A stretch of DNA of 64,000 nucleotides, taken from contig JAUWIU010000001.1 of the NCBI GenBank assembly GCA_030608075.1, positions 1-64,000 on the forward strand. Direction: 5' to 3'. The position numbers and the translations under genes were made by a program. The notes under the pieces were generated by a model. The model was not told the DNA's origin, did no database searches, and saw nothing but the letters and a program-made list of their open reading frames with translations. Source of the DNA: Phycisphaerae bacterium. Lineage in GTDB: Bacteria > Planctomycetota > Phycisphaerae > Sedimentisphaerales > Anaerobacaceae. Of the stretch, positions 9,287 through 54,020 are shown one piece after another (position 1 is the stretch's first letter; each line of letters opens with the position of its first letter).

Positions 9287-9351
9287 ATCAGCCCGGCAGC
9301 GGAAGTCATTGTAGTTTTTTTACGGCCAATATCGGAGGGACAGGTCACAGA

Positions 9352-10236: not shown

Positions 10237-10490
10237 GTTCTCGACTCAGCCGACAAATCGGTGAGTTCGGGTAAGATTGAAGAATAATCGATTCTAAAAC
10301 GGTGCTGCCCTTGCTCCCGCCTTTGAAAGGTCAAGACTTCACTTACCGAAGCCAGCGTTGAAGTCGCGCATTTTGACGGTGTAATCCCCCAACCCCACAC
10401 TCGACGAAGTTATGCAGCTGCTTAAACAAAGTTACAAACGCTAACATGCAAAGCCCAGTCAAACAGATTCGCCGCTGGCTTACTCTTCGG

Positions 10491-11666: not shown

Positions 11667-11686
11667 AACAATATCCTCAAATCCCG

Positions 11687-12802
11687 TCACTTGCCTGTCC
11701 CGTCATCTTCCCACTCACCGGCAGACCGCGTCCCCTGCTCAACATACTTCACCGCCGAGGCCTTGAAGCTCACCCACACCTTCTTTCCACGCCTAAGCGC
11801 CAGCGCCTTTACCGACTCAGCGGTTATCAGCGCGGCAACTTCAACCGCCGTTCCGGCCCCAATATCAACCACAACTTCAAGCCCAAGCCCGGCAGGTACA
11901 ACGTCCACAATCGTCCCTTCAAAATTATTCCGTGCGCTTGTGTGACTCGGCGAGTTGGCAATGGTAACATCCTCACTTTTGACCATAATAAACCCCTCCC
12001 CGCCCTCACTGTCATTCAGGACCGAAAAATCGCGTCCATCGGTTTTGAACCGTCGCGAGGCAGCCTGGCCCCTCGGGGCTTCCAATCGCCCCTTGAAAAA
12101 ATTCCTGATACCCACAAACCTGGCAACAAACTCCGACCTCGGACGCCTCAAAACCTCCGCCACCGTCCCCGTCTGTGCAATCCTTCCATCCTCCATCACC
12201 GCTATATGCGTACCCAGAGAAACCGCTTCGGTGTAATCGTGCGTCACATGCACTATCGTCCGGCCAGCGGCGTTAATCTTCCGCAGAAGCCCACGCATTT
12301 CAGGCCGAGATTTCACGTCCAGCGACGATATCGGCTCATCAAGCAAAAGACACCGCGGCTCACTCGCCACCGCACGCTGAAGTGATACTCGCTGAGATTC
12401 ACCTCCAGAAAGTGTTGTCGGCATACGCCCTAAAAGCCCGCTGATGCCAAAGTCCTCGCCTAACGACGCCACTCGTTCCTGAATCTGCCGCCTCGAAAAT
12501 TTCTTGCACCGAAGCGGATATGCAACATTGTCATAAACCGTCATATGCGGAAAAAGTGCGCTGTTTTGAAAGACCAGTGCCGTCCCTCGCTTCTGAATCT
12601 TTTCGTTGGTAATATCCTTCCCATCGAGCAATATCTGCCCGGCATCGGGCTGAACAAGACCCGCTATCGTCTCCAGCACAACGCTCTTGCCGACTCCGCT
12701 GGCTCCGAGCAGCACAAAGTACCGGCCCCGCTCAACCTCAAACGATATATCGTTTATCGCAAAAGATTCTAAGGTCTTGCAAACATTTCTAACGCTGAGC
12801 AT
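11687..12802 (-). CDS. wtpC: Tungstate/molybdate ABC transporter ATPase
   Basis: The 371-residue ATPase has Walker A GASGVGKS (33-40), signature LSGGESQRVSLQRA, Walker B LLLDEP and the switch His in VTHD. An added C-terminal part of about 130 residues looks like the TOBE regulatory/oxyanion-binding domain of ModC/WtpC-type importers. It overlaps the permease gene by 14 bp, and its stop overlaps the alternative moeA start. It powers import of tungstate or molybdate with the two genes upstream. Confidence 0.9.
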   Translation of the reverse strand: MLSVRNVCKTLESFAINDISFEVERGRYFVLLGASGVGKSVVLETIAGLVQPDAGQILLDGKDITNEKIQKRGTALVFQNSALFPHMTVYDNVAYPLRCKKFSRRQIQERVASLGEDFGISGLLGRMPTTLSGGESQRVSLQRAVASEPRCLLLDEPISSLDVKSRPEMRGLLRKINAAGRTIVHVTHDYTEAVSLGTHIAVMEDGRIAQTGTVAEVLRRPRSEFVARFVGIRNFFKGRLEAPRGQAASRRFKTDGRDFSVLNDSEGGEGFIMVKSEDVTIANSPSHTSARNNFEGTIVDVVPAGLGLEVVVDIGAGTAVEVAALITAESVKALALRRGKKVWVSFKASAVKYVEQGTRSAGEWEDDGTGK

Positions 12803-13589
12803 CTTGCCTCCCCTTAGCCAAAAGCCGCAGCATCACGAAGAACACCAGACAAACAATTATAAAGAGAACCGCCACCGGCCGGGCGTACTTCAGCCCGAAA
12901 GCTCCGAAGCGTTCATATATCAGTACCGGCGTAATCATCGGGTGATAGGCAATTATCAGGACCGCGCCAAACTCGCTCATCCCCCTTGCCCACATCAAAA
13001 TCAGCCCCGACAGAATCGGCCTTGCCGCCAACGGCACCGAAATAGTCAGAAAGACCCTCAAAGGACTCGCTCCCAGACTAAGCGCCGCCTTTTCGAGACG
13101 AACCGGCACGGCGAGAAAACCGTCACGGGCCGAATTGATAAGAAACGGAATGCTGACAAAAGCCATCGCCGCCATTATGCCCGCGCTGCTGCTGATGAAA
13201 CTGAAACCCATTTTTGTGGCCGCCCTGCCGAGAAAGCTGCTTCGAGCGAGGACGCCCAGCAGCGCTATTCCCGCCGCCGAATGCGGTATCACAATAGGAA
13301 GGTCAATAATGCCTGTCACAAGCCCTTTCAGCGGAAAATCCTTTCTTGCTAACAGGTATGAAAAAGGGATGGCCGCCACAGCAAAGATTAACGTCGCCCC
13401 CATCGAAGTCCACAGGGTAAGCCAGATACTGTTTCTGACTTCATCGTCTCCGGCCGTCTCGGCAAGTTCGGCCAATGAGCAGTTCAGAAACATACTCACT
13501 AACGGCGCAACAATAAACAGCAACACCCCCCCGCCGAGCGCAGCAAACACGAGCGAAAGCGCCCCAGTTCTAAATCCTCGGCGGCTCAC
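12789..13589 (-). CDS. wtpB: Tungstate/molybdate ABC transporter permease
   Basis: The 266-residue membrane protein has six predicted helices and the binding-protein-dependent permease loop EKAALSLGASPLRVFLTI, which couples to the ATPase. It starts at GTG 13589, overlapping the stop of the binding-protein gene by 4 bp (GTGA), and overlaps the ATPase gene at its end, so the three transporter genes are translationally coupled. Assigned to the Wtp/Mod/Tup oxyanion group mainly from its partners. Confidence 0.9.
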   Translation of the reverse strand: MSRRGFRTGALSLVFAALGGGVLLFIVAPLVSMFLNCSLAELAETAGDDEVRNSIWLTLWTSMGATLIFAVAAIPFSYLLARKDFPLKGLVTGIIDLPIVIPHSAAGIALLGVLARSSFLGRAATKMGFSFISSSAGIMAAMAFVSIPFLINSARDGFLAVPVRLEKAALSLGASPLRVFLTISVPLAARPILSGLILMWARGMSEFGAVLIIAYHPMITPVLIYERFGAFGLKYARPVAVLFIIVCLVFFVMLRLLAKGRQDAQR

Positions 13590-14575
13590 CGTTGCCGCCT
13601 CTCTGCCGCCAGTGCAAACCTCTTCAAACTTTCCGGGAGTTTATCGAAGGTATCGGTAGGCGAAGGAACTACCGGCGTCTGTCCGTTCGCCTTTAGAATC
13701 GTCCCACCCTTATCACCATCCAGCAAAAACGTCACAAAGGCCATCGCGGCTTTCCGATTCGGCGCGTTCTTCGGTATTGTAACGCCGTATACTATCGGCT
13801 CGCCTGTCTTGCTGATAAAGGTCCCTGGCTTCTTGCCTGTCACCCGCACGGAAGCCTTCTTGTACAATTGCGCAAACTCCTGTTTCTTCAGATTAATCTC
13901 ATCCGGCAGTACCAGATATCTAAGTTTGTGCTGCTCCGCAACCGAACGGTATATGAAAATATAGTCAATCTCACCGACCTCCAAAAGAGCCAACAAATCA
14001 ACTTCCTTCGGACGGATGTATCTTCGGTCCTTTGCCAGCATCTTCTTTGCAAGTCCCGGCCGATGATAGTATTCTTCCGCCAGCCTTACCACAAGTACAG
14101 CCCTGTACCCGCACGGGTCAGAATTGGCGTCCGACCTGCCGAAGGCAGCATCTTTCCGCAGCAGAATATCGTACCAATTGTCCTTGCTGATTTCGCCGGC
14201 TTTCCTCGCATCCTCGCCCATTGCAATAACCATCTCGTTACTTGCGAACCTGATATTCCAGTCCGCGTACTCATCGACCAAAAGAGTATCTATAACCGTA
14301 TAATCAGCCGACGCCATAACGTCACACCGCCTGTGAAGCTCGGCAATTTTTCGAGCACAGACTCGACTGCCCGCCGCCTCGCGAACAATTTTCACCTTGG
14401 GATAATACCTGTTAAACTCTTCACATATCTGTTTGAACGGAACCGCGAGACTGCCCGCATGAAAGATGACCAATTCCCCTGAAAGCTCGTGGCTCCTTGC
14501 CCCTAACGGTGCTGTCACCGTCAGCAAAAACAAAAAAACAAAAAAAATCAAAACAGCCCGTTCGACTTTCTTCAC
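13586..14575 (-). CDS. wtpA: Tungstate/molybdate-binding protein, WtpA type
   Basis: The 329-residue exported protein has an N-terminal hydrophobic signal (AVLIFFVFLFLLTVTAPLG). It shows the WtpA/ModA binding blocks: IFHAGSLAVPF (first oxyanion loop), EAAGSRVCARKI, DVMASADYTVID, and FGRSDANSDPCGYRA. A length near 330, rather than about 240, and the SADY and DPCGYR motifs place it with WtpA, the high-affinity tungstate/molybdate type found in archaea and anaerobes. The tungstate preference is established for characterised WtpA proteins, not shown here. Encoded 12 bp after the MoeB-like gene. Confidence 0.9.
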   Translation of the reverse strand: MKKVERAVLIFFVFLFLLTVTAPLGARSHELSGELVIFHAGSLAVPFKQICEEFNRYYPKVKIVREAAGSRVCARKIAELHRRCDVMASADYTVIDTLLVDEYADWNIRFASNEMVIAMGEDARKAGEISKDNWYDILLRKDAAFGRSDANSDPCGYRAVLVVRLAEEYYHRPGLAKKMLAKDRRYIRPKEVDLLALLEVGEIDYIFIYRSVAEQHKLRYLVLPDEINLKKQEFAQLYKKASVRVTGKKPGTFISKTGEPIVYGVTIPKNAPNRKAAMAFVTFLLDGDKGGTILKANGQTPVVPSPTDTFDKLPESLKRFALAAERRQR

Positions 14576-39414: not shown

Positions 39415-40458
39415 TCACGCCACCGACCCCATCTGGAAAATCCTGCCCGGCTCCTCCGCCATCCCCGTCCGCGCCGAAAGATAAGCCGACTCAATCACCG
39501 CCATATTCTTGAGGTTCTCTCTGCCGCTGCTGACAAGCTGGTTTTCCTCCGGCGCCAATATGCTAAGCGCAAAGTTCTCTAACAGCTTCTTCATACAGCA
39601 CAGCTCATCGTCACCGTATCTTCTTTCTTCCTCGATGCGTCCAAGCCCGTCACTCACATTGAATTGATTGCTGCCGGCTGTCAAGACCTTGTCTTTGCCG
39701 TACACTTTAAGCAATTCCTGCCCCGGCCCAAAAGCCCTGCTCACCACCAGATTGCCGATGAACGTATCCGTAAACTTCAATGTCACCAAGGCCGTATCTT
39801 CTGTTAGGTAAAGCCGTTTTTGTCTGTCACCCGCCTGGTTCGTAATGACCGAATAGACATGCCCCGGCACGCCGAAGTTCCATACCATCTCGTCGACCAA
39901 TTCATAACAATCTCGGAGCAGCACCCCCCCGCCGGCCAGCTTCGGGTCGCTGTGCCAGCCCGGCTGCGCCTTATCGCCGGACGTACGCACCCCCGTCACC
40001 AGGAAAACATTCTCGATTCGTCCCTCCTGCAAAAAATCCCGCAGTGCAAGATAACTCTTCGCAAACCGGCGCCAATTCGCAACGGCGAATTTCACACCTT
40101 CATCTTCTGCAAGACGAACAAGCTCCGCCGCCTCTTCAAAACCCCTCCCCGCCGGTGCCGCCTTAAGTACGTTGAATTTCTTCTTTATTGCCGCCCGAAC
40201 ATACTCATCGCAACTGTACAAACCGGCGGCCACCAACAGACAATCCAACTGATTCTGTATCACTAATTGCCTGTAATCATCGTACGCGGTGCACTTGTGT
40301 TCCGAAGCCAGCCTTTCGGCAAGCTCAGCATCCTTGTCGGCAACAGCCTCAACCTGCAAATAATCCACACCGCAGGCCGCTTCCAGCAGAACCTGTCCGG
40401 TCTCATTGAGCCCAAGTATCCCTGTTTTCAATCTCGTATCTTGCATTTTGCCTTTCAC
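39415..40458 (-). CDS. Gfo/Idh/MocA-family oxidoreductase
   Basis: The 347-residue protein has an N-terminal Rossmann fold (TGILGLNETGQVLLEAA, slightly off the usual GxGxxG), KAAPAGRGFEEA in place of the usual EKP block, and a C-terminal alpha/beta sheet domain. Such enzymes oxidise or epimerise sugars with NAD(P). The EKP motif, where the Lys is catalytic, reads KAAPAG, so the active site is modified. No close neighbours share its strand. Substrate not inferable. Confidence 0.75.
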   Translation of the reverse strand: MKGKMQDTRLKTGILGLNETGQVLLEAACGVDYLQVEAVADKDAELAERLASEHKCTAYDDYRQLVIQNQLDCLLVAAGLYSCDEYVRAAIKKKFNVLKAAPAGRGFEEAAELVRLAEDEGVKFAVANWRRFAKSYLALRDFLQEGRIENVFLVTGVRTSGDKAQPGWHSDPKLAGGGVLLRDCYELVDEMVWNFGVPGHVYSVITNQAGDRQKRLYLTEDTALVTLKFTDTFIGNLVVSRAFGPGQELLKVYGKDKVLTAGSNQFNVSDGLGRIEEERRYGDDELCCMKKLLENFALSILAPEENQLVSSGRENLKNMAVIESAYLSARTGMAEEPGRIFQMGSVA

Positions 40459-40756
40459 CTTTAATTCGCAACCGCCTTTTCTGTCCGCCTGATTTTACAT
40501 CTCTTTTGCCAAAAAGTAACTATAAAAAGCTGCCTGCTTTTGTCCAACAAACACTTGAGTTCGAATCAATCGCGCAGCGCCTCAAAAGCAAAAAACAAAT
40601 TTTTTGAAAAATTTTTAACTCCCTTTTTGACAGGTACTTATCTAAAAACCAACCTGCCAAAATCCTGCATTTTTCTAATCAAACGCGAAAGCCAAAGCAA
40701 TAGTAGAGTGGCCTAACTATAGAAAGGCAAAAAACAGCCATCTCAAAAAACTTAGT
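40459..40756. other. Intergenic region, AT-rich
   Basis: 298 bp between divergent genes. It contains an imperfect A/T palindrome (AAATTTTTTGAAAAATTTTT, about 40598-40617) and a TTGACA at about 40628 without a matching -10. I see no RNA gene or ORF with an RBS. Confidence 0.5.
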
Positions 40757-41428
40757 ATGCTCCCAAAAACCTGCCAATATTGCTCCCACGCCAAAAACGC
40801 AACCGCCGCAAGCCGCGCAATCTTAATCTGCGACCACAAATATAGCTCCGAGCCAAAATGCTTCGTAGTCGCACCAGACGAAACCTGCCCAAACTTCAAA
40901 CCCAGCACCGTAGGCTGGGCTTTAGCCCACCAGATTTATGACGGCTCCCGCCTCATTCCTTTAACACAGGGCAAGTTTGCCATCGTCGACGCCGAGGACT
41001 ACCCACGCCTCGCAAAATACAAATGGTCCGTATCTCGCAACCGTTACAATTTTTACGCCTGTCGACACACATCCGGGAAAAAGATTTCTATGCACCGCCT
41101 CATTGCCAACGCCCCCGCTCACCTTCTCGTTGACCATATAGACCACGACGGCCTGAATAACAGAAAGGCAAACCTCCGACTCTGCTCAATCGCTCAAAAC
41201 AACCAAAACAGCCGACCTAACCGCAATGCAGCTTCAAAATACAAAGGCGTCTCTTGGGCCCAATCCTGCCGCAAATGGTTCGCTCGCATACGCCCAAACC
41301 GCAAGACCATATACCTCGGCCTGTTTACCGACGAAATCGAAGCCGCCCTCGCTTACGACCGAAAGGCCAAAGAGCTCTTCGGCGAATTTGCCTACCTGAA
41401 TTTTCCCCCCTGTCCCCGAATGTTGTAG
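40757..41428 (+). CDS. HNH endonuclease with AP2 DNA-binding domain
   Basis: The 223-residue protein has an N-terminal zinc-ribbon-like Cys set (Cys6, 9, 25, 35, 44). An HNH nuclease domain follows (MHRLI, then HIDHDGLNNRKANLR from residue 127 and QNNQNSR). An AP2 domain comes last (about 160-215: YKGVSW, W-x-ARI, YLGLFTDEIEAALAYDRKA). Stand-alone HNH-AP2 proteins are homing-endonuclease-like mobile genes, common in phages and planctomycetes. Residues 50-59 are encoded by a palindromic repeat (40910-40931), which appears to have been inserted in frame between the zinc part and the nuclease part. No intron or intein is seen around it. Confidence 0.88.
   Translation: MLPKTCQYCSHAKNATAASRAILICDHKYSSEPKCFVVAPDETCPNFKPSTVGWALAHQIYDGSRLIPLTQGKFAIVDAEDYPRLAKYKWSVSRNRYNFYACRHTSGKKISMHRLIANAPAHLLVDHIDHDGLNNRKANLRLCSIAQNNQNSRPNRNAASKYKGVSWAQSCRKWFARIRPNRKTIYLGLFTDEIEAALAYDRKAKELFGEFAYLNFPPCPRML
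40910..40931. repeat. Palindromic repeat inside the HNH-AP2 gene
   Basis: GTAGGCTGGGC-TTTA-GCCCACC contains a perfect 5-bp stem TGGGC/GCCCA and is of the REP-like type often scattered through environmental planctomycete genomes. It is read through as STVGWALAHQ. A related element lies at 49314-49330. Confidence 0.55.
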
Positions 41429-41463
41429 TCGTGGATCCAACCTGTCCCCGCGAAGCCTGCCCT

Positions 41464-41504
41464 CGTTCGAGCACCCTCGAGGCAGTCGAGGGAACACTCG
41501 AACG
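41464..41504. repeat. Two-step inverted repeat at the island border
   Basis: CGTTCGAG (41464-41471) pairs with CTCGAACG (41497-41504), and inside it CCCTCGA (41474-41480) with TCGAGGG (41486-41492), around a 5-nt loop. It lies 36 bp after the HNH-AP2 stop, where base composition drops to AT-rich. There is no T-run, so it is not a standard terminator. The rest of 41429-41760 is AT-rich and non-coding except for a promoter -10. Confidence 0.6.
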
Positions 41505-41635
41505 GAGCCTAGAAAAATCCCTCTTAGTACATAAATATTTAGCCCCCTAGTTTATTGGGGAGAGTTCTTTCCTCTGGAAAAATTTTTATTCTTTTCAAAT
41601 TTTATTCTTGCCATGCTCCGTCAATTTAGTTATTC

Positions 41636-41641
41636 TATAAT
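41636..41641 (+). promoter_or_regulatory. Candidate -10 box of the island operon
   Basis: A perfect TATAAT lies 120 bp upstream of the first island gene in a strongly AT-rich stretch. No convincing -35 is found at 16-18 bp spacing, so the call is tentative. Confidence 0.35.
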
Positions 41642-41760
41642 CAGAGAGCTACTGTTAGCTTTGTGAAGATCTGGTTGTTGAAAAGAGGTGAGTTTCTTCA
41701 TAATACGAAACTGGTGGAGGCGGGATTCAAAGGACCAAGGAATCTTCTGCACGGAAGCTT

Positions 41761-43098
41761 ATGCACGATATACATTTCCGAGAAAGAGTGCGAACTCGTG
41801 TTTTTGAAGTACTTTGGGATGCCGCTCCTATAACCTTCGAGCACATCCTCAAAAGGTCGCTTAATTGTGACCCAGCTTTCCTGCTCGACGTAGTCCAGGA
41901 CCTCCAACATGCCGATTTTATCTCCTCCACAGAAGGTCGAGAAACTCCTATTAGATATTGGCTGAAAGTAATAGACAATTATCCTCGCCCAGAAACCACT
42001 CCTTCTAAGCAATCTGCCACTACACCTTCTCTTGGCATTTCTTTGGATCCTCGCCAAACCGAATATTTGAGAGACTTGCTTCAAGAAATGCTTGATTCCT
42101 TTCCGGAGCCGGCACCAGTATATTCTCAGTGGTGGTTTTCAGAATCAATATATGAAAATCTAATTAAGCTTGTCTTGCACCTGTCCAAGCATCGTACGCC
42201 ATTGGCCTTCCTCGGGTCTGGTACGCTTGGAGCTCTTTTATCGCATTTTTCTACCAATCCAGTGACCATACTTGATGTTGATGAAGTTTTGTTGGAAAGA
42301 ATTAGTCGTTACTGTTCTGAATCGACTCAAACAATTCGCTATGATGTTTCAAACGAGCCGGGTAGTTCTTTTAAAGATGCATTCCAACTTCTTTTTGTTG
42401 ATCCTCCTTGGTCAAAGTCTATGTTGCGAGCTTTTTTAGTTAGAAGTTCAACATTTGTGTCTGTCGGAGGTACCCTTGCAATTTCTTTCCCGCAGGTTCT
42501 AACCAGACCCTCAGCTGAATCGGAGACGAAGGAATTACTAAATTTGGCGAAAAGCCTTGGGCTTTCGCTTAGATTAAGATTGCCGAGCTTTACAGAGTAT
42601 TCAGTCCCTGCCTTTGAGCGAAATGCTTACGAGCATTGTGGGATACACCTCCAAGAGCCATGGCGGAGAGGTGACTTATTTGTATTCACGAAGACCAGGG
42701 ATGCTTCAGTAGAGATTACACCTTTAATCGAGAAAACGCCTGGATGGAGCCAATATCACTATGATAAATGTAGGCTGTTTCTAAAAAGAGATGGTCTTTT
42801 CGAAGATGGCCACCCATCAGTGCAGCCTATTCCTGGCGTTGAAGATTTAATTTACAAATCTGCAAGCACGCGCATGGCTTCTTGGAAATCAGCATCTTTG
42901 GTTTCTACACGTAATCATATTGCGCATGCTTATGGAAAAAGGGAACTGTCCGCCTTGTTCAAAACGACTTTTGGGCAAGACCATGGCAATTATAAGAATT
43001 ATGAAGCTTTTGCCTCTATGATACCTGTGGAAATTCAAGAAACCATTTCTTCAATGTTGGACATTGCTAACTCTCAAAGAGGAAAAGTTAGCAAATGA
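41761..43098 (+). CDS. BpsA-like methyltransferase-fold protein with HEPN-like C-terminal motif
   Basis: 445 residues, of unknown function. Residues 1-70 look like a winged helix (RTRVFEVLWDAAPITFEHIL). Residues 120-330 form a Rossmann domain with FLGSGTLG (150-157), LDVDE (171-175, nucleotide-ribose acidic pair) and VDPPWS (213-218). This order and spacing recall the branched-polyamine synthase family BpsA (winged helix, then a methyltransferase-like fold with DPP). The DPPW box also resembles N6-adenine methyltransferases. The C-terminal helical tail contains STRNHIAHAYG, an R-x4-H motif (Arg384, His389) of the kind that forms HEPN ribonuclease sites. The gene overlaps the dGTPase start by 4 bp (ATGA). 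Codon use is AT-rich, unlike the surroundings. Likely accessory, perhaps defence, cargo (inference). Confidence 0.7.
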   Translation: MHDIHFRERVRTRVFEVLWDAAPITFEHILKRSLNCDPAFLLDVVQDLQHADFISSTEGRETPIRYWLKVIDNYPRPETTPSKQSATTPSLGISLDPRQTEYLRDLLQEMLDSFPEPAPVYSQWWFSESIYENLIKLVLHLSKHRTPLAFLGSGTLGALLSHFSTNPVTILDVDEVLLERISRYCSESTQTIRYDVSNEPGSSFKDAFQLLFVDPPWSKSMLRAFLVRSSTFVSVGGTLAISFPQVLTRPSAESETKELLNLAKSLGLSLRLRLPSFTEYSVPAFERNAYEHCGIHLQEPWRRGDLFVFTKTRDASVEITPLIEKTPGWSQYHYDKCRLFLKRDGLFEDGHPSVQPIPGVEDLIYKSASTRMASWKSASLVSTRNHIAHAYGKRELSALFKTTFGQDHGNYKNYEAFASMIPVEIQETISSMLDIANSQRGKVSK

Positions 43099-44489
43099 CT
43101 AATTTAAGTGATTATTACAGAATAACATCTTCCGCAAAAGCTTTAGAAGAGCAGGAATGGAAAACTCTAGCCTCCTATGCTCTAAAGGCAAAGGAAAGGC
43201 GAAACAAACTAAAGAAGAAATTTCGGGAGTATCGTCCGAACGCACCTTTAGAACATCGAACGGCATATCACAGAGACCGAGATAGAATCTTATGGTCGAA
43301 AGCCTTCAAAAGATTGCAACACAAAACACAGGTCTTTCCTCATTATGTAGAGGACCATTATAAGAGGCGGCTCACCCATTCCCTTGAGGTTTCACAGATT
43401 GCTACAACTGTTGCAAGGGCTTTGAAACTGAATGAAGCTGCAACGGAGGCCATCGCTCTTGGCCACGATTTGGGCCATACTCCATTTGGACATGCTGGCG
43501 AAAAGGCCCTAAATGAAATTCTGACTTTGAAATCGGAGATTCTAAATGCAAAAGTGGGAAAAGAACTTAAAAAGCTCAGTAAACTCAAAACTAATAATAT
43601 CGTTCCGATATTTGGGTTTGACCATTGTGTTCACGCAATTGAAGTTGTATCTCGGATAGAGAAAGAATATGACGAGGAAACCGAACACGGCGGCTTTAAC
43701 CTGACTTTTGACGTGAGAGACGGAATCTTAAAGCACATGTGTGAGCGCACCACTGCTAAGGAGAAGCGAGAAAGGCCCTTCTCAAATATTGCAGGTCTTA
43801 AAAGATTTGAAAAGTATAGGTGCTTTGGTACTAATAAAGGTTGTTTGGAAGCTCAGTGTGTTTATTTTGCCGATAAAGTCACATATCTGCTTGGGGATAT
43901 TGAGGATGGTGTGCGATCAGATATTTTGGAATGTGAAGAACTTAATAAACATGCTTTCATTCAAAAATATCTCAGAAAATATTATAAGAAGTATCGGCAC
44001 AGCAAGCTAGAGCTCTTAAGCAAAACGAATTTTCCATTATTTCGAAGCAAAGTTTTAACAACTTTAATATTAAATTGTATAGACACTTCAAACGAAAACA
44101 TTCAAAACAACAAGATAAAGAATTTTTACAAAGTACTATCTAAGTGTAACCGGATAGTATTTGTATCCGATGATTTAAACAAATCTTGGAAGGACTTTTA
44201 CCAAACGTGGATGGCGAATAACCTATTCAAAAACGATCGTGTTGTTGCATGCTCTTTCAAAGCAGAAAAAATTGTGACCGATTTGTTCAATGCTTACTTT
44301 CAAAACCCAGATCTGATAGATGCGAAATACTACAAGCACTGCCTTAAAGTTTATAAAAAGATAGGCATTTCTGACAAGAAATTATTGAAGTTGATAATAG
44401 TTCGTAACTATATTGCAGGAATGACAGATCCGTTTGCATCAGACCAACATGCCAGGCTTTACATGGCTTTAGAACGCATAAGATTTTGA
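43095..44489 (+). CDS. dgt: dGTPase-family HD-domain triphosphohydrolase
   Basis: The 464-residue protein has the dGTPase start RDRDRILWSKAFKRLQHKTQVF, then HD-domain metal ligands His95 (RLTHSLEV), His124-Asp125 (GHDLGHTPFGHAGE) and Asp260 (FADKVTYL). Family members cleave dGTP, or other dNTPs, to the nucleoside and triphosphate. Several act in antiphage defence by draining the dNTP pool. It is translationally coupled to the preceding BpsA-like gene (ATGA overlap) and shares its AT-rich composition, so the two probably form one functional unit. The C-terminal half (about 280-464) is Lys-rich and less conserved. Substrate specificity and a chromosomal housekeeping role cannot be excluded. Confidence 0.9.
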   Translation: MTNLSDYYRITSSAKALEEQEWKTLASYALKAKERRNKLKKKFREYRPNAPLEHRTAYHRDRDRILWSKAFKRLQHKTQVFPHYVEDHYKRRLTHSLEVSQIATTVARALKLNEAATEAIALGHDLGHTPFGHAGEKALNEILTLKSEILNAKVGKELKKLSKLKTNNIVPIFGFDHCVHAIEVVSRIEKEYDEETEHGGFNLTFDVRDGILKHMCERTTAKEKRERPFSNIAGLKRFEKYRCFGTNKGCLEAQCVYFADKVTYLLGDIEDGVRSDILECEELNKHAFIQKYLRKYYKKYRHSKLELLSKTNFPLFRSKVLTTLILNCIDTSNENIQNNKIKNFYKVLSKCNRIVFVSDDLNKSWKDFYQTWMANNLFKNDRVVACSFKAEKIVTDLFNAYFQNPDLIDAKYYKHCLKVYKKIGISDKKLLKLIIVRNYIAGMTDPFASDQHARLYMALERIRF

Positions 44490-44582
44490 CATCTTCAAAG
44501 CACCCCAAACCCGCAATTCCTAGCAATCAAAACCGTATCTCGTGAAGCGTATCCCGCTTCGATTCCTGCCTGCGCCGGAAGA

Positions 44583-44966
44583 TTATGTGAACTGGTTTTT
44601 TATGCTGACAATTTCTTTTGTTAAGATGCTTGCTGCGCCGAGACCGAACATCCCAAAGACAATCAGCATCGGCCCGAAGAAGAAAACAACGGCGGCACCG
44701 ATTGCACAACCGGCCAACGGCCATAGGACAATATCGCGGAGTCTGCTTTTTCTTGTGCCGGGCAGCAGTTCAAATATCACAATCCCGCAGGCAAAGCCGG
44801 CAGCAGTTACTACAGGAGCCAGCAGCCAACAGAGGACTTTTGCAAACAAGGGGCCTGACTTAAGTACCGGAATGGCAACGGCCATCCAGCCGGTATAAAA
44901 AATACCTGCGAAAATAACAGAGACAATGATTCTAATGAGCAAACCAGAGAAGCATTTAAAATTCAT
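44583..44966 (-). CDS. Small integral membrane protein, unknown
   Basis: 127 residues with four hydrophobic helices (for example IIVSVIFAGIFYTGWMAVAIPVL, LAPVVTAAGFACGIVIF, AGCAIGAAVVFFFGPMLIVFG). It is GC-rich again, so outside the AT-rich island. No family recognised. Convergent with the dGTPase gene. Confidence 0.65.
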   Translation of the reverse strand: MNFKCFSGLLIRIIVSVIFAGIFYTGWMAVAIPVLKSGPLFAKVLCWLLAPVVTAAGFACGIVIFELLPGTRKSRLRDIVLWPLAGCAIGAAVVFFFGPMLIVFGMFGLGAASILTKEIVSIKNQFT

Positions 44967-45015
44967 GATACACGTTATTTTATATTTTTCTTATCATCCT
45001 CGGTTTTGTATGCCT

Positions 45016-45064
45016 TCTGTCCTCTGTCCTCTGTCCTCTGTCGTCTGTCCTCTGTCGTCTGTCC
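45016..45064. repeat. Heptamer tandem repeat, 7 copies
   Basis: Seven uninterrupted copies of TCTGTC(C/G): copies 4 and 6 end in G, the rest in C. It lies 5 bp downstream of the stop of the minus-strand DUF6868-like gene. A short simple repeat, likely variable in copy number between strains. Confidence 0.9.
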
Positions 45065-45068
45065 TATC

Positions 45069-45311
45069 TCACGGACGCTTCCCCGCCCACTTACAGGCGA
45101 TATAAGGAACCAGGAAAAACAGAAAAACACAAACCTTCGCAAACATCAGGCCACAGTAATGGACAACCGCAAAATCATGTTTCGACAGTTCAAACCACTT
45201 CGAATGAACTTGATACACCCAGTCACCTGTCACCAAGCACAAGAACCAAATCAGTACGAACACCATTCCAAGCACAAAACATCGAATCGCGACCTTCTCA
45301 AACATCTCCAT
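45069..45311 (-). CDS. DUF6868-like small membrane protein
   Basis: 80 residues from ATG 45311, which has AAAGGAG upstream. Two or three membrane helices and the pattern WVYQVHSKWFELSKHDFAVVHY followed by VPYIACKW fit the small DUF6868 family as I recall it. Function unknown. The frame extends to 45383 but without a better RBS. Confidence 0.65.
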   Translation of the reverse strand: MEMFEKVAIRCFVLGMVFVLIWFLCLVTGDWVYQVHSKWFELSKHDFAVVHYCGLMFAKVCVFLFFLVPYIACKWAGKRP

Positions 45312-45363
45312 AGTTGTATCTCCTTTCTCTACAACTGCAGAACATACATATAGCGACCCTTGG

Positions 45364-45975
45364 CTACTTCTCAAGTAGCTCAAGGCACAACTGCGACCAC
45401 GTCTCTAAAGTATCTCGGACCTCCTGCAGCTCGGCAGGTATCATAAACGCCATTTGGGTAATCATCTGTTCTCGCTTGCTGACGGCCGGTGAGTCCAAAA
45501 TCCAGTGGTGGACAATTCCGAGGTGCACGCTTCCGACCTCGTTGGAATCGTCATTAAGCAGAGCAACAATCTGGTCGGTGTGCTTCGCTTCTACGGACAC
45601 TTCCTCCGCTACTTCGCGCTCAACGGCGGTGAGGTACATCTCGCGGAAACCCGTATCAAACAAGGGCACTTCATTATCGCCGGGGTTTATATGGCCTCCT
45701 ATGCCGATGGACCTGTTTCCGACTAGCCGGGTCTCCCCGGCCCGCTTGCCTCGGATGTAGGTCAGGTACTTTCCGTCATTACTCATAATCACGTACGGAA
45801 TGAGCTGCTTATAGGCGGGGTCGGCTTCGGCCTGTGACCGGGGCAGAAAATAGAGAATGCCCGGTGCGAACAGCCTGCGCAGATACCGCTCCACGTCCAA
45901 CATAAGCCCCTGGAACATCCCTGCCTGCTCAAGGACCTTTCGCTCGACAACCAGTACCTGTTCTTCCTGGGCCAT
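45364..45975 (-). CDS. Nudix hydrolase-like protein
   Basis: From ATG 45975 (AAGGA 8 bp upstream) the 203-residue protein carries a Nudix-type box: GGHINPGD, then AVEREVAEEVSVE (the metal-binding REVxEE core) with a longer spacing than the classic 23-residue box. It also has RLVGNRSIGIGGH and HLGIVHHWILD. Such proteins hydrolyse nucleoside-diphosphate derivatives; the substrate is unknown. It follows glyA after 35 bp and may be co-transcribed. Confidence 0.75.
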   Translation of the reverse strand: MAQEEQVLVVERKVLEQAGMFQGLMLDVERYLRRLFAPGILYFLPRSQAEADPAYKQLIPYVIMSNDGKYLTYIRGKRAGETRLVGNRSIGIGGHINPGDNEVPLFDTGFREMYLTAVEREVAEEVSVEAKHTDQIVALLNDDSNEVGSVHLGIVHHWILDSPAVSKREQMITQMAFMIPAELQEVRDTLETWSQLCLELLEK

Positions 45976-46010
45976 GCTGTTATTCCTTGAGCATTTTGAG
46001 TTTCCTGAAC

Positions 46011-47321
46011 TTAAAACAGCCACGGTATTAGACCGTCTGAGTCTTGCAGCGGGCCGGGATTATTCTTATTTGGAATAATAAAGTGGTCCGGAACAGGAAA
46101 CTGCGAACACAGAAGCAGAACTTCTTTTCCGACCTTTTCGATTACCGACTCATCATCGATATTTTCCACTACTTTATTAATAAAGCCGGCTATCTGTTTG
46201 GCGTGGTCCTGTTTCATCCCGCGTGTCGTAATGGCAGGCGTACCTATACGCAGGCCGCTTGGGTTAAACGGCGGGGCAGGGTCATTCGGAATCGTGTTGT
46301 AATTGGAAACAATTCTTGCTCTGTCCAGGGCCTTGGCCAGCTTTTTACCCGGCACATTCTTATTTCGCAAGTCGATTAGAATCAAGTGATTGTCCGTACC
46401 GCCGGAGACAAGATTGAAGCCGTGCTCGAGAAGCTTCTCGGCAAGCGCCTTTGCGTTCTTGACTACCTGCTTGGCATAAGCGATAAATTCCGGTGTATCC
46501 GCTTCGGCCATTGCCACCGCAATAGCCGTCAGTGTGTGCATATGTGGCCCGCCCTGAAGGCCGGGAAAAACCGCCTTGTCCACCTTCTCTGCGTGTTCGG
46601 TCCTGCACAGCAGCATTCCGCCACGAGGTCCTCGCAGGGTCTTATGCGTTGTTGTCGACACAATATCGGCATACGGCACGGGACTTTTGTGGATACCGGC
46701 CACAACAAGGCCCGCAATATGAGCTATATCGCTGATGTGATAAGCTCCTGTGTCTCTCGCTATCCGGCCGAATACCTCAAAGTCAATCTCCCGAGGATAT
46801 GCTGTGGCGCCGGAAATAATAATTCGCGGCCTGTGTTTTTTCGCAAGCTCCGCAATCCGGTCATAGTCAAACCTGCCCGTATCCGGATTCACCCCGTATT
46901 GTACCGAGTTGAATATCCTGCCTGATGCCGTGACCCGCCACCCGTGGGTGAGGTGTCCACCGTGCGGGAGTGCCAAACCCATAATGGTCTCTCCCGGCTT
47001 GGCCAGGGCCAGGTAGGCCGCCAGGTTCGCAACGGAGCCCGAATAGGGCTGAACATTGGCATGGTCGGCCTTGAAGAGCTTCTTGGCGCGGTCCTGAGCC
47101 ATCCTCTCGATAAGGTCGGTGACCTGCTGGCCTTCGTAATAACGCCTGCCGGGATAACCCTCGGCGTACTTGTTCGTAAGGCAGCTTCCACTGGCCAACA
47201 TCACCGCCCTGGACACGTAGTTCTCCGATGGTATCAGACGAATTGCGCCGCTTTGACGGGCCTTCTCCTGCCTTATAAGCTCATAAATCTGCGGGTCGTA
47301 TTGCTCAAGTGCTGTTATCAT
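46011..47321 (-). CDS. glyA: Serine hydroxymethyltransferase
   Basis: The 436-residue PLP enzyme interconverts serine and glycine with tetrahydrofolate. Key blocks: IPSENYVSRAV, NKYAEGYPGRRYYEG, VQPYSGSVANLAAY, SDIAHIAGLV, the PLP-lysine TTTHKTLRGPRGG, and the C-terminal GLRIGTPAITTRGM. RBS GAGG before the ATG at 47321. Full length and intact. Confidence 0.97.
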   Translation of the reverse strand: MITALEQYDPQIYELIRQEKARQSGAIRLIPSENYVSRAVMLASGSCLTNKYAEGYPGRRYYEGQQVTDLIERMAQDRAKKLFKADHANVQPYSGSVANLAAYLALAKPGETIMGLALPHGGHLTHGWRVTASGRIFNSVQYGVNPDTGRFDYDRIAELAKKHRPRIIISGATAYPREIDFEVFGRIARDTGAYHISDIAHIAGLVVAGIHKSPVPYADIVSTTTHKTLRGPRGGMLLCRTEHAEKVDKAVFPGLQGGPHMHTLTAIAVAMAEADTPEFIAYAKQVVKNAKALAEKLLEHGFNLVSGGTDNHLILIDLRNKNVPGKKLAKALDRARIVSNYNTIPNDPAPPFNPSGLRIGTPAITTRGMKQDHAKQIAGFINKVVENIDDESVIEKVGKEVLLLCSQFPVPDHFIIPNKNNPGPLQDSDGLIPWLF

Positions 47322-48957: not shown

Positions 48958-49233
48958 GTGGCACATTCGTTATCAGCTAAAAAAAGAGTCAGGCAAAACG
49001 CAAAAGCAAGGGCAATCAATCGCGCGCGAAAAAGCCGGGTAAAAACACAAATCAAGCATTTTGAATCGGCACTGGCCGGCGAAGACGTTGAAGCTGCAAG
49101 CGAGCAGTATCGGCTTGCTGCCAAAAAGCTGGACAAAACCGCAGCCGCAAGCACAATGCACAAAAGAACCGCCGCGAGGAAAAAATCGCGTCTCGCAAAA
49201 AAACTAAACGCGCTAAAGGCAAAAAAGGCATAA
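48958..49233 (+). CDS. rpsT: 30S ribosomal protein S20
   Basis: 91 residues, very Lys/Arg/Ala-rich. It matches S20: AHSLSAKKRVRQNAKARAIN at the start and AASTMHKRTAARKKSRLAK near the end. The start is GTG at 48958 with AGGAG upstream. Full length. Confidence 0.96.
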   Translation: MAHSLSAKKRVRQNAKARAINRARKSRVKTQIKHFESALAGEDVEAASEQYRLAAKKLDKTAAASTMHKRTAARKKSRLAKKLNALKAKKA

Positions 49234-49313
49234 AGTAGCGGATAGTGTTTAGCGTAGAGCGGATAGAAGGCGAAATCAAAAGTCAAAATGTAAAGTGCAA
49301 AACGAGCACAAGC

Positions 49314-49330
49314 GGTGGGCACGGTCCACC
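49314..49330. repeat. REP-like palindrome
   Basis: GGTGG-GCACGG-TCCACC followed by CTAC. The arms pair with one G-T wobble. Related in type to the palindrome embedded in the HNH-AP2 gene. Confidence 0.5.
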
Positions 49331-49674
49331 CTACATAGCTAATCGGCACACGGGGCACGAGCGACGAGGAACGAAATTGTTTAGCGTGCGGGGTTGGGTA
49401 GAGAATTTCGGATTTCAGATTTCAGATTCAAGATTTTGGGCTAGCCAGAGAGAACACAGAGAAAGTGTAATATTTCGTTGAAAGAAATTGCAGTTTTGGG
49501 CGGAACGGCTATAATAGCATAATTGAGTTAGACGTAAGACCCAAGGCACAAAACCGAATGCGAAGAACCAAGAAGAAAAGGTAAGCTTGGAGCTATGCAG
49601 AAAATTGGTATGAATAATAGTTTTCCGCTTTACTAATGTAAAAATCTTAAGTATTTTCAATGTAATGATTTAAA

Positions 49675-49705
49675 TTGAACTCAGATTAACTTATAGTCGT
49701 ATAAT
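49675..49705 (+). promoter_or_regulatory. Candidate promoter of the three-gene module
   Basis: TTGAAC (49675-49680) and a perfect TATAAT (49700-49705), but with a long 19-bp spacer. About 180 nt of AT-rich leader follow before the first gene. Confidence 0.4.
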
Positions 49706-49883
49706 AGCTATCAGTGGAAACACGGGTGGAAAATCTGGGGTTTGAAGTCGGTCGGCGAGCTTTTTTATCTAGTGTATGGAAAACTCTTTAGCTAAGTGGC
49801 AGTATTCCTGATATTTACATAAGTTCCGTGTAAAATCATAAGAAAGTGGATTTCTGAGATTACGTAATAGGAGCATGTGAAGC

Positions 49884-50543
49884 GTGAAACTTGAGATATT
49901 AAGTACATCGGTTGTTGTTTTGGCAAAGCATCACAATCCCACAATTCTTCATCCTAGTTTTCTTGATTTTGAAGGTATTGTGCCCTCGGATTGGGAAACG
50001 GTTGAGGCTGTGTGCACGCCCGTTTTTGCTGTAGTAAAATACAAAAACGGGATTGTTTTCAATGTTGTAGAAAACAAGTTCCAAGTTACTGATAATAAAA
50101 TAAAGGATGATTTTAGGAAGTCAGAAGTCTCTGACTTGGCGTGCAAATACGCAGAGAAACTGCCTCATGTTCACTATACTGCGGTAGGAGTTAATTTTAA
50201 TGGCTTTATAGAGAGTGCCGAGGCAAAGTCAATCGTCATGGAGCAGTTCCTTAAACCAAACGCTGCCGACTTTAATGGGATTTCCCCTGAAACATTGGGC
50301 CTGCGCGTTGTGTACAAGCTTCCGGACGCACGTTTGGTATTGTCCCTTGATGGGGGAAAAGCCAATGTTGGGACCGAGAAGGAGCGCAGTGGCATATTGG
50401 TCAACGCCAATTATCACATGGACTTGCCGGACACCAACAGAGAAAATAGAATAAACGGAATACAAAAGGCAACTTCTCTATTCATCCAGCATTATGATAA
50501 CTTTATTAATGTGACCGGAAGCATTTTCCCTTTGGAGGCTTGA
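49884..50543 (+). CDS. Unknown protein, first gene of an AT-rich three-gene module
   Basis: 219 residues from GTG 49884 (AGGAG 10 bp upstream). Mixed alpha/beta: VVVLAKHHNPTILHPSFLDFEGIVP, FAVVKYKNGIVFNV, VHYTAVGVNFNGFI, GLRVVYKLPDARLVLSLDGG. No signal peptide, membrane helix or catalytic motif. Its layout loosely recalls the TIGR04255 group of proteins found in variable genome regions, but I cannot assign it. The next gene starts 3 bp after its stop, so the genes are coupled. AT-richer codon use than rpsT and rnr on either side suggests acquisition. Confidence 0.7.
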   Translation: MKLEILSTSVVVLAKHHNPTILHPSFLDFEGIVPSDWETVEAVCTPVFAVVKYKNGIVFNVVENKFQVTDNKIKDDFRKSEVSDLACKYAEKLPHVHYTAVGVNFNGFIESAEAKSIVMEQFLKPNAADFNGISPETLGLRVVYKLPDARLVLSLDGGKANVGTEKERSGILVNANYHMDLPDTNRENRINGIQKATSLFIQHYDNFINVTGSIFPLEA

Positions 50544-50546
50544 CAA

Positions 50547-51026
50547 ATGGCACCTGCACTTACTCCAGTAGTTTTACAGCAGACGCAACCTAAGGTCGGG
50601 CCTTATTTATATGAAGAATGGAATATCAAAAGAGACTTAAAAAGATTGATTGAGGAGATAGCTTCCTTGCTTGCCGGCAAGCCTGAATCCTTTCATTCAG
50701 ATCTAGCCACCAGTAGTGGCGGAGAGTTCACAGAACAAAGTGATTTTTGGAAAACTCCTATTCGCTATATTGAAGTTATTATGGATCCTACCACAGAAAA
50801 TGACACCCGTATCGATATAGACTACGAAAGGGAGCTATTGGAGACTCAAAGAAGTGCGCTTGCTGCATCAATTACGCCCGCTATACACGAGGCAGAAGAG
50901 GAGTTCCTTGACTGGGATGCGCATATTGAAACGCCACCTGCACCGCAGCGGTCAGGGACCATTAAGGTTAGGTTTAAATACATAGGTCGTAGCAAACCAA
51001 TTCCTATTGATGACCCATGGGCGTAA
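50547..51026 (+). CDS. Unknown protein, second gene of the module
   Basis: 159 residues from ATG 50547 with GGAGG 8 bp upstream. The N-terminal half has an amphipathic helix (NIKRDLKRLIEEIASLLAGK). The middle has a strand-rich part (FWKTPIRYIEVIMDPTTEND), an acidic helix (AIHEAEEEFLDWDAHIE), then a basic strand (TIKVRFKYIGRSKPIP). No Cys or His cluster. Possibly a partner protein bridging genes 1 and 3. No family recognised. Confidence 0.7.
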   Translation: MAPALTPVVLQQTQPKVGPYLYEEWNIKRDLKRLIEEIASLLAGKPESFHSDLATSSGGEFTEQSDFWKTPIRYIEVIMDPTTENDTRIDIDYERELLETQRSALAASITPAIHEAEEEFLDWDAHIETPPAPQRSGTIKVRFKYIGRSKPIPIDDPWA

Positions 51027-51045
51027 CAAAGGAGATTATTCACAT

Positions 51046-51579
51046 TTGGATTATCCATGCTATGAAATAGTGAGCGATGATGATATTCAACAAGGGGATA
51101 TTCTCGAAAATTGCCCAGTCCTTATTTTACCTTCAGAATTATCATTGAGCTCATCTAATACTAGGACTAGTCCTTATGAGATTCCCTGGGAGGGGAGAGA
51201 TGTAATTGTGTTATCACAGTCATGCGATATGGTTAAGGGCCGCGAAAAGATTCCAGAAGTCTTACTTTGCTGTCTATGGAAAAAATCAGATATTAAAGAA
51301 GGACAGATGTCCAGCAACGATGATTGGAACAAAGCTCGTAAGGGCGCCATGCCTGGCTTCCATGTATTGGACCGATGCGATTTGGAAGGATTCAAACGAG
51401 ATTTTAGTGTTGTTGATTTTCGCCGCGTGCATTCTCTGCCGCTTGATTTCGTTCGTAATGTACCTGGTGAATTGGGTGAGCGAATCCGCTTGCTCTCACC
51501 TTATCGAGAGCACCTTTCTCAAGCATTTGCCCGTTTCTTTATGCGAGTCGGCCTTCCAGTTGACATACCTGAGTTTTAA
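51046..51579 (+). CDS. Unknown protein, third gene of the module (QSCD/PYREH motif family)
   Basis: I start at TTG 51046, which follows AAAGGAG; an ATG at 51010 would overlap the previous gene and lacks an RBS. 177 residues with striking conserved-looking blocks: QQGDILENCPV, VIVLSQSCDMVKGR, VLLCCLW, GAMPGFHVLDRC, VDFRRVHSLPLDFV, and the C-terminal RLLSPYREHLSQAFARFFMRVGLP. I recall similar QSCD and PYREHLSQAFARFFMR segments in scattered bacterial hypothetical proteins, but no function. The Cys/Asp and Arg/Glu/His residues could form a catalytic centre. AT-rich like its partners. Confidence 0.75.
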   Translation: MDYPCYEIVSDDDIQQGDILENCPVLILPSELSLSSSNTRTSPYEIPWEGRDVIVLSQSCDMVKGREKIPEVLLCCLWKKSDIKEGQMSSNDDWNKARKGAMPGFHVLDRCDLEGFKRDFSVVDFRRVHSLPLDFVRNVPGELGERIRLLSPYREHLSQAFARFFMRVGLPVDIPEF

Positions 51580-51803
51580 TGTTAGCTGGCGGGCACTATG
51601 TCGAAACAGTTTGTATTGTGTGTTTGGGATTACCATGTTGCTACGCTTCTTGCAATGGCACTAAGAGGGTACGGGTAGGCATTATTCTGCGAAGACAATT
51701 TTTCTCAGCTTTTTTCTAAATTCAGCTTACCATCCCCTAATCCCTAAAATCTGTAGCTAATATTTTATCCCTGTCCTCTGCGACAAAGATATGGAGATGT
51801 CGG

Positions 51804-54020
51804 ATGCTGGAAGTTTTGAAAAGAAGCATAATTAAATTACTAAAGCACGCTGATTACAAGCCGTTGAAGCTCGCACAATTAGCAAAGGCTCTCGGCGTAA
51901 CTTCCGACGACTACCCGCAGTTCAAGTCGGCTTTTGAACAATTGCGACTGGCCGGGCACGTGGTAACAGGCAGCGGCAACCTCATCAGCCTGCCGCCAAT
52001 GACAGGGGTAATCACCGGAACATTCAGGGCCAACCCAAACGGCTTCGGTTTCGTAACCCCTCTCGACCCCAACGCCCACGGCGATTTATTTATCCCGCCA
52101 AACGCAACCGCCGACGCAATGACCGGCGACATCGTTTCGGCAAAAGTGGTGAAAAAAGGCAGACGCGGTGGGCAGATGCGCTTCAGCGGAAAAATAGTCG
52201 AGATACTTGAGCGGGCACAAAACAGATTCGTCGGAACACTGGTAAAACAGGCGGAGGGATGGGTCGTGCAGCCGGACGGTAAAGGACTCACAGACCCGAT
52301 AGCGGTCGATGATGTTACCGCAAAAGACGCCGGCAAGAACGACAAAGTCGTTGTCGAAATAGTAACCTGGCCGACCGAAAGATACCTGGCTCGGGGCGTG
52401 ATTACCGAGGTGCTCGGAAAAGCCGGACGATACGAAACTGAGATTCAGTCAATAATTCGCCAGTATCATTTGCCCGCCGAATTCGACGAAACCTGCACAG
52501 GCCAGGCCCGCAAAGCTACCGGCGAATTCAAGCCGGACAAGGCCGACACAAGGGACGACATAACCGATAAACTCGTTATCACAATCGACCCGCCGGACGC
52601 CAAAGATTTCGACGATGCCATAAGTCTCGAGAAGGACGGGCGCGGCAACTGGCTGCTGGGTGTCCACATCGCTGACGTAAGCTGTTTCGTGCCGGCGGAT
52701 TCGGCCTTAGATACCGAGGCACACCTCCGCGGAAACAGTGTGTATCTGCCCGGCAGAACCATTCCAATGCTGCCCGAGCTTTTGAGCAACGGCATCTGCA
52801 GCCTACAGCCCGGACAGAAGCGATTCTGCAAGAGCGTATATTTGACCTACGACCCGCAGGGAAATATGCTGTCTCGCACCTTCGCCAACACTGTTTGCCG
52901 GTCGAGGCATCGGCTCACGTATCAGGACGCCGACAGGATTTTGAAGGGGCATACAAAGCAGGCTGAACCGGAGGTCATCGAGCTGCTGAGGAATATGGAA
53001 GCACTCAGCCGGCTGATTGAGAACCGACGTCTGCAAGATGGAATGCTGCATCTGGATTTGCCTGAAACCGAATTGATAATGGATAAGTCCCACCGAATTG
53101 TCGATGCCCGCCCTGCGGACGACAGCTACCCCCACACGATAATAGAAATGTTTATGGTAGAGGCAAACGAGGCGGTCGCTTCGCTGCTGGATAAGCTCAA
53201 CGTTGCGTTTATGCGAAGAATTCACCCTGAGCCCGATACTTTGACTATGAAAAATCTTGGCGAAATCCTAAGGGCTTTTGGTCTGTCTGTCCGGCGAACA
53301 CCAAACCGCACCGACATGCAGAATTGCCTCGCTGCTGTAAAGGATACCGATTCGGCACTTGCGGTCAATCTGGCCATCCTGCGAAGTCTGGAAAAAGCCC
53401 AGTACGCACCGCAGAGTATCGGTCATTTTGCTTTGGCCTCGGCGCACTACTGCCACTTCACCAGCCCCATACGCCGATACGCCGATTTACTCGTTCACCG
53501 CCTCTTACAGTCCTACCTGCAGCACGGGAGCAATTTGACCGACCACAAGCGGCGTTTGTCGCAGGAGCACTTAGCGGACATCGGAAAGCACATCACCTTC
53601 ACCGAGCAGCGGGCCGAGGACGCCGAAAACGAACTCAAAACAGTCCTGGTCTTACAGTTGCTGAGCAAACACATCGGGGACCAAATCGACGGCGTTGTTA
53701 CAGGCGTCGCTGCCTTCGGAGTATTTGTACGCTGCCAAAAATTCGGCGTTGAAGCCCTTATTCGCACCGAAGACTTAGGTAGCGACCATTGGAGATTTTC
53801 CCCGGTGGAGCAATCCGTTGTCGGCCTTGGCTCAGGAACCTGCATTCGGCTTGGCGAGCCGATGAAAGTCAGAATACTGTCGGTAAATCTCCCCGCTCGA
53901 CAGTTGAACGTCGCGCCGGTTGAACCTGTAACTCAAAGGCGCAAACCAAGAATGAAAGCCAAACCACGGAGAAAATCAAAAGACCCGCATATCCGCAGAC
54001 GCTCAAAAACAAGAAAGTAG
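51804..54020 (+). CDS. rnr: Ribonuclease R
   Basis: The 738-residue 3'-5' exoribonuclease has an N-terminal winged helix (1-60), cold-shock domains (GVITGTFRANPNGFGFV), and an RNB catalytic core with DPPDAKDFDDAISLE (metal-binding Asp residues). HFALASAHYCHFTSPIRRYADLLVHR, an S1 domain (GVVTGVAAFGVFVR) and a Lys/Arg-rich tail follow. Intact. It degrades structured RNA. Confidence 0.95.
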   Translation: MLEVLKRSIIKLLKHADYKPLKLAQLAKALGVTSDDYPQFKSAFEQLRLAGHVVTGSGNLISLPPMTGVITGTFRANPNGFGFVTPLDPNAHGDLFIPPNATADAMTGDIVSAKVVKKGRRGGQMRFSGKIVEILERAQNRFVGTLVKQAEGWVVQPDGKGLTDPIAVDDVTAKDAGKNDKVVVEIVTWPTERYLARGVITEVLGKAGRYETEIQSIIRQYHLPAEFDETCTGQARKATGEFKPDKADTRDDITDKLVITIDPPDAKDFDDAISLEKDGRGNWLLGVHIADVSCFVPADSALDTEAHLRGNSVYLPGRTIPMLPELLSNGICSLQPGQKRFCKSVYLTYDPQGNMLSRTFANTVCRSRHRLTYQDADRILKGHTKQAEPEVIELLRNMEALSRLIENRRLQDGMLHLDLPETELIMDKSHRIVDARPADDSYPHTIIEMFMVEANEAVASLLDKLNVAFMRRIHPEPDTLTMKNLGEILRAFGLSVRRTPNRTDMQNCLAAVKDTDSALAVNLAILRSLEKAQYAPQSIGHFALASAHYCHFTSPIRRYADLLVHRLLQSYLQHGSNLTDHKRRLSQEHLADIGKHITFTEQRAEDAENELKTVLVLQLLSKHIGDQIDGVVTGVAAFGVFVRCQKFGVEALIRTEDLGSDHWRFSPVEQSVVGLGSGTCIRLGEPMKVRILSVNLPARQLNVAPVEPVTQRRKPRMKAKPRRKSKDPHIRRRSKTRK

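Follow-up and report, generated by a model that had tools for sequence, protein, structure and literature searches.

Clover is a two-gene defense system composed of the dGTPase CloA and the nucleotidyltransferase CloB, in which a signal made by CloB restrains CloA (PMC12265719). Single-gene anti-phage dGTPases and dCTP deaminases are attributed to Tal et al. 2022, as that work is cited in PMC12265719. We analyzed two overlapping genes in a 64,000-nucleotide stretch of a Phycisphaerae bacterium (contig JAUWIU010000001.1, positions 1 to 64,000; hereafter the window). As in Clover, a dGTPase gene was present (gene 2), and its partner (gene 1) encodes a Rossmann methyltransferase-like protein instead of a Pol-beta nucleotidyltransferase. 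The initial annotation had called the pair a system not yet described; a dGTPase with an enzymatic regulator is already known from Clover (PMC12265719), but the gene-1 partner was not found described. Our leading reading, which we put tentatively at a little short of an even chance, is that the two genes were acquired horizontally as an accessory module that targets the pool of deoxynucleotides, most likely in defense against phages. The features of the locus are as follows.

40459 to 45366, no strand: variable site between a GFO/IDH oxidoreductase gene (39418–40458) and a gene for a 219-aa protein (45367–46023)
40757 to 41428, forward strand: HNH-AP2 endonuclease-like gene bordering the AT-rich block (Pfam HNH_3 2.6e-6, AP2 1.4e-5)
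about 41464 to 41504, no strand: hairpin in the gap that separates gene 1 from the HNH-AP2 gene, from DNA folding
41761 to 43098, forward strand: gene 1, 445 aa, with a winged helix, a Rossmann methyltransferase-like domain and a beta-rich C-terminal region
gene 1, residues about 4–68: winged helix
gene 1, between winged helix and Rossmann domain: linker
gene 1, residues about 97–311: Rossmann methyltransferase-like domain with the DPPW motif
gene 1, residues 329–391: beta-rich C-terminal region, followed by short helices
43095 to 43098, forward strand: ATGA stop/start overlap of gene 1 and gene 2, read from the sequence
43095 to 44489, forward strand: gene 2, 464 aa, dGTP triphosphohydrolase family

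The two open reading frames with their ATGA overlap, the HNH-AP2 gene on the left and the hairpin (−17.9 kcal/mol, z −2.45 as folded DNA) were all present as first annotated, and Rfam gave no match near the site of the gene pair. The overlap suggests that the two genes are translationally coupled. An AT-rich block had also been described, and this held for the pair itself, because the GC content was 0.428 in gene 1 and 0.379 in gene 2 versus 0.53–0.54 in the flanks (0.539 in the left oxidoreductase gene and 0.542 in the right conserved gene). The HNH-AP2 gene, in contrast, had a host-like GC content of 0.527, so the AT-rich block consists of gene 1 and gene 2 only. Because of this GC content and of an AP2-type open reading frame close to the matching site in one relative (L130), the HNH-AP2 gene does not clearly belong to the block and is probably a separate resident of the variable site. 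Its host-like GC content gave no support to the idea that it is the carrier of the island. A second AT-rich stretch (GC 0.42–0.44) was observed at 49001–52000 of the window, downstream of rpsT.

Gene 2 had been described as a complete dGTPase-type HD enzyme, and profile searches bore this out: it scored 226.5 bits against TIGR01353, above the curated cut-off of 152.35, and 6e-69 against the PADLOC dGTPase model. Its best sequence match in the PDB was 2dqb from T. thermophilus (1e-47), with which the motifs containing H95, H124, D125, and D260 were aligned; from knowledge of the family, we take these four residues to be the metal site. These matches place gene 2 firmly in the dGTPase family, and it presumably hydrolyzes dGTP.

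In gene 1, the motifs noted earlier were located at residues 150 (FLGSGTLG), 172 (DVDE), 214 (DPPW), and 384 (RNHIAH). The protein matched Pfam PF10237 above the cut-off over residues 122–219 (2.8e-7), and it scored 25.4 bits (1e-5) against the BpsA family PF01861. Because the latter score was under the cut-off of 27, gene 1 is not BpsA by profile. Neither gene 1 nor its profile retrieved a useful match when PDB sequences were searched. The AlphaFold2 model, based on 49 sequences (mean pLDDT 86.8), had as its best fold matches in the PDB 2qm3 and the BpsA structures 5xnc and 6j27 (for the BpsA structures, E about 1e-15 and TM-scores of 0.57 by query and 0.70 by target). Thus, gene 1 is predicted by the model to have a BpsA-type fold, a winged helix plus a Rossmann domain, with a DPPW motif that is by its letters of the amino-methyltransferase type; the label BpsA-like is apt for the fold and not for membership of the family. 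Polyamine synthesis by gene 1 was rejected, since there was no polyamine gene context and the PF01861 score fell below the cut-off, and no fixed link of its homologs to polyamine synthesis was found.

The pair was inserted at a variable, mobile site. The order common to related genomes is rpsT, a TPR gene, glyA, the conserved 219-aa gene that adjoins glyA, and the oxidoreductase gene. At the variable site, relative G011 (L132) was empty except for one small membrane open reading frame, G036 had small genes, and G023 (L129) had genes for a HerA-like ATPase and a BrxC/BrxD-like ATPase, so the pair was not fixed at a single syntenic housekeeping locus in all relatives. The module with the HerA-like and BrxC/D-like ATPases at this site in L129 comprised four genes (9351–13960). 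No gene-1 homolog was found among 98 relatives besides the genome of the window itself, and one further copy was found among 391 other Planctomycetota. The immediate neighbors of the window pair included no defense genes.

The window pair itself is one divergent example, and the larger finding of this analysis is the operon in which relatives of gene 1 occur. The gene-1 family was recovered in seven plasmid records and one phage record by tblastn, and at 62 genomic loci by a scan of the collection; it is sporadic, rare, and spread over many phyla. When only strong matches were counted, the samples of Bacillota, Bacteroidota, Pseudomonadota, Chloroflexota, and Cyanobacteria (194–299 genomes each) contained between one and three positive genomes apiece, mostly the one at the center of the sample. 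No relatives turned up when viral contigs were scanned with the window gene 1 or with the L009 protein alone. In most loci, the family formed part of a seven-gene operon in the order DUF6932 (or DUF4160), HTH plus M78-type metalloprotease, DUF4186, radical SAM, gene-1 homolog, ASCH, and AAA/dNMP-type kinase. The DUF4186, radical SAM, ASCH, and kinase genes were absent around the window pair. A second form, found at 13 loci, combined a mostly short gene-1 homolog with a PUA-like calcineurin-type phosphoesterase, and L116 contained one more such pair. The window pair, gene 1 with a dGTPase, is a third form. This exact two-gene form was found once, in the window, with no further example in the five phylum samples; the recurrence of the exact pair in unrelated genomes, for which the initial annotation had proposed a check, was not observed in these samples.

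Phylogenetically, the phosphoesterase pairs of Alphaproteobacteria fell into a single clade, apart from the set of operon-type loci, and the window gene 1 was a long branch of unsure placement. The window copy and the fecal-phage copy L009 grouped together (98/93), but this grouping was rejected because it joined two long branches, neither of which had a supported position once the other was omitted. The window gene 1 was only about 20–25% identical to its homologs. At a thaumarchaeal contig (L051, 8968–11127), a transposase-like insertion interrupted the gene-1 homolog. Near the gene-1/phosphoesterase pair of three Rhizobiales loci (L007 8575–12825, L062 11524–15947, and L067 6649–13761), a set consisting of a kinase-adenylosuccinate synthetase fusion, a YfbR-like HD protein, DUF7002, and a 467-aa protein occurred in shuffled order. 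The radical SAM family (L025 7961–8983 and homologs, 53 loci) was about 50% identical across phyla. Searches of the literature on DUF4186, DUF6932, and the gene combination gave no description of the operon, and the gene-1 family is likewise undescribed in the literature searched. In a published plasmid comparison, the operon's genes lie within an 18.4-kb insertion (PMC9679502).

The link of this family to deoxynucleotide enzymes was recurrent. Accessory genes were counted as every same-strand gene that abutted the operon of a gene-1 homolog with a gap of up to 100 bases. By this count, a dGTPase gene abutted the operon at L025, L027, L030, and L056, in addition to the window; it is an accessory gene of the cyanobacterial operons, and gene 2 is only distantly related to the dGTPases found there. 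A dCTP-deaminase-like gene abutted the operon at L044, L057, L058, and L059, MazG at L055 and L073 (Pfam matches of representatives, 4.5e-20 and 3e-10, respectively), and DUF763 at L008 and L012. Furthermore, MazG-like and thymidylate-kinase-like genes were located upstream at L034, and the Chloroflexota locus L115 contained another dCTP-deaminase-like gene with a dNK. Because L022 and L025 had the flanks on both sides in common and the dGTPase gene was found only in L025, the dGTPase is an exchangeable part of the operon. The strongest reason for reading the window pair as functional, a contextual one, is that the accessory enzymes have different folds and work on deoxynucleotides. Apart from these loci, a second type of dGTPase, of about 390 aa, was noticed in five relatives (L097 5765–7560, L099 5310–7123, L100 5385–6754, L101 6095–7938, and L102 5661–7447), where its gene overlapped one for a nucleoside 2-deoxyribosyltransferase-like protein (the L099 copy, read from L094, matched PF05014 at 1.1e-18); this pair recurs and has no relation to gene 1.

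The surroundings of the relatives included defense and mobility genes. At a threshold of 1e-15, 120 neighbor open reading frames matched 75 PADLOC families and 84 control open reading frames matched 11, mostly generic; this comparison counts families and not proteins, and it is rough because the two sets were unmatched by lineage and mechanical open reading frames were included. The neighbor matches included Gabija, AbiEi/AbiEii, pAgo, BilD, IetA, and a restriction enzyme, and at L007 GajA (2.6e-203) and GajB (8e-181) lay immediately upstream. Cyanobacterial loci of the family adjoined Tn7-like TnsB and TnsC. At L022 and L025, genes for Tn7-like TnsB and TnsC and a probable TniQ directly adjoined the operon on its downstream side, which suggests that the operon at these two loci is transposon cargo.

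The position of gene-1 relatives in defense islands beside other enzymes of DNA building blocks points to a probable anti-virus module in the window, and the genomic context supports the idea of dNTP depletion as plausible. The part of the initial annotation that proposed a nucleotide-depletion module therefore finds indirect support in the repeated linkage of the family to deoxynucleotide enzymes and defense islands. In the mechanism that we propose, gene 2 would hydrolyze dGTP and thereby starve an invader of DNA precursors, and gene 1 would most likely sense infection or restrain the dGTPase, by analogy with the partner enzyme in Clover. Phage defense, regulation by gene 1, and dGTP hydrolysis are inferred in this scheme, and gene 1 may have either kept or lost its catalytic activity. 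A broader form of the same idea, which we regard as possible but doubtful, is that the gene-1 family is central to a class of defense systems, undescribed and widely transferred, that is built on deoxynucleotide chemistry and has the window pair as its smallest form. In such a class, the radical SAM protein, the DPPW methyltransferase-like protein, the modified-base-type ASCH reader, and the dNMP kinase would produce or detect an unusual nucleotide, with the interchangeable dNTP-removing enzymes as helpers or effectors.

It is less probable, and in our judgment unlikely, that the family makes or handles a modified deoxynucleotide and that the window pair is a reduced form of that pathway. The radical SAM protein and gene 1 would then modify a nucleotide, the dNMP-type kinase would charge the product, and the dGTPase, MazG, or dCTP-deaminase-like enzyme would remove the competing normal nucleotide, as in the known parallel of PurZ-DatZ-MazZ in 2-aminoadenine phages (PMC8342488). 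The content of the large operon is consistent with such a pathway, since a radical SAM protein in which C97, C101, and C104 are invariant, a kinase that matches the phage deoxynucleoside monophosphate kinases of PHROG 139 (9e-7), an ASCH protein, and the DPPW protein occur together with optional dNTP-removing enzymes of several folds, and the three Rhizobiales loci have the kinase-adenylosuccinate synthetase fusion and the YfbR-like HD protein nearby. However, none of the radical SAM, kinase, and ASCH genes is present in the window, and the radical SAM model, which resembles many superfamily members, is close to none of them among the solved structures.

An explanation that we also hold to be improbable assigns no joint function to the pair: gene 2 would be an ordinary or dispensable extra dGTPase that lies by chance beside a decaying gene 1. 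No second dGTPase was found in the window's own genome, whereas 35 of the 41 genomes searched contained one, so gene 2 could serve housekeeping; the assembly, however, is only 67% complete, and gene 2 is longer than the common copies (464 versus about 370 aa) and far more AT-rich than its neighbors. Gene 1 lacks H118, D121, R125, P154, Y218, and R375, which are invariant or nearly so in the family, and may therefore be decaying or differently employed. Nevertheless, it retains D214-P-P-W217, R249, P250, Y280, P283, F285, E286, W329, S369, R371, and N385, including the DPPW motif and most of the residues conserved in the C-terminal S.R...R...N region (S369, R371, R375, and N385). The ATGA overlap and the independent abutment of a dGTPase on the gene-1 family in cyanobacteria also argue against a chance neighborhood.

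A restriction-modification-like pair appears more improbable still. Gene 1 would be a DNA or RNA base methyltransferase that labels self, and a varying partner, phosphoesterase or dGTPase, would act where the mark was missing or foreign. The DPPW motif, the PF10237 match, and the phosphoesterase partner in the second form (13 loci plus L116) fit this proposal, but no target-recognition domain was recognized in gene 1, DNA is not a substrate of dGTPases, and the window pair has no nuclease. Finally, we give almost no probability to the HEPN ribonuclease domain that the initial annotation read into a helical tail of gene 1 because RNHIAH fits R-x4-H by its letters: the motif was not conserved in 48 homologs (R at R384 in 7/48, H at H389 in 2/48), it straddled a beta strand (386–391) of the confidently modeled beta-rich tail (329–391), a C-terminal fold unlike HEPN, and Pfam gave no HEPN match for gene 1.

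The defense module proposed for the window can thus be set against several known families. Gene 1 shares the arrangement of winged helix and Rossmann domain with the branched-chain polyamine synthase BpsA (PF01861), but differs from it in its C-terminal region, in its sub-threshold profile score, and in the lack of polyamine genes nearby. With the probable N6-adenine methyltransferase family PF10237 it shares a match above the cut-off and a DPP[WF]-type motif, to which it adds the winged helix and the beta-rich C-terminal region; a cyanobacterial gene-1 relative tested against PF10237 scored below the cut-off. The gene-1 relatives resemble the PurZ-DatZ-MazZ set of Z-genome phages (PMC8342488) in having HD or MazG dNTP hydrolases beside nucleotide-making enzymes, although their core is the radical SAM protein and the DPPW protein instead of PurZ, no polymerase is present, and the genes are bacterial and not of phage. 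Gene 2 and the accessory genes of the operon belong to the effector families of the single-gene anti-phage dGTPase and dCTP deaminase, in accord with the PADLOC match, but gene 2 is joined to the gene-1 family and scored 169.7 bits against the NCBIfam anti-phage dGTPase model NF041026, under its cut-off of 400. Clover shares with the window pair the two-gene module in which an HD dGTPase is accompanied by a partner enzyme, the logic of nucleotide depletion, and the association with defense islands; the partner in Clover is a Pol-beta nucleotidyltransferase, whereas that in the window, a pair known from its sequence, is a winged-helix, BpsA-fold DPPW protein. If our reading is correct, it would point to an operon, undescribed in the literature searched and conserved across phyla, in which a radical SAM protein occurs with exchangeable enzymes for dNTP removal, and the window pair would represent, beside Clover, a second mode of tying a dGTPase to a partner enzyme in defense.
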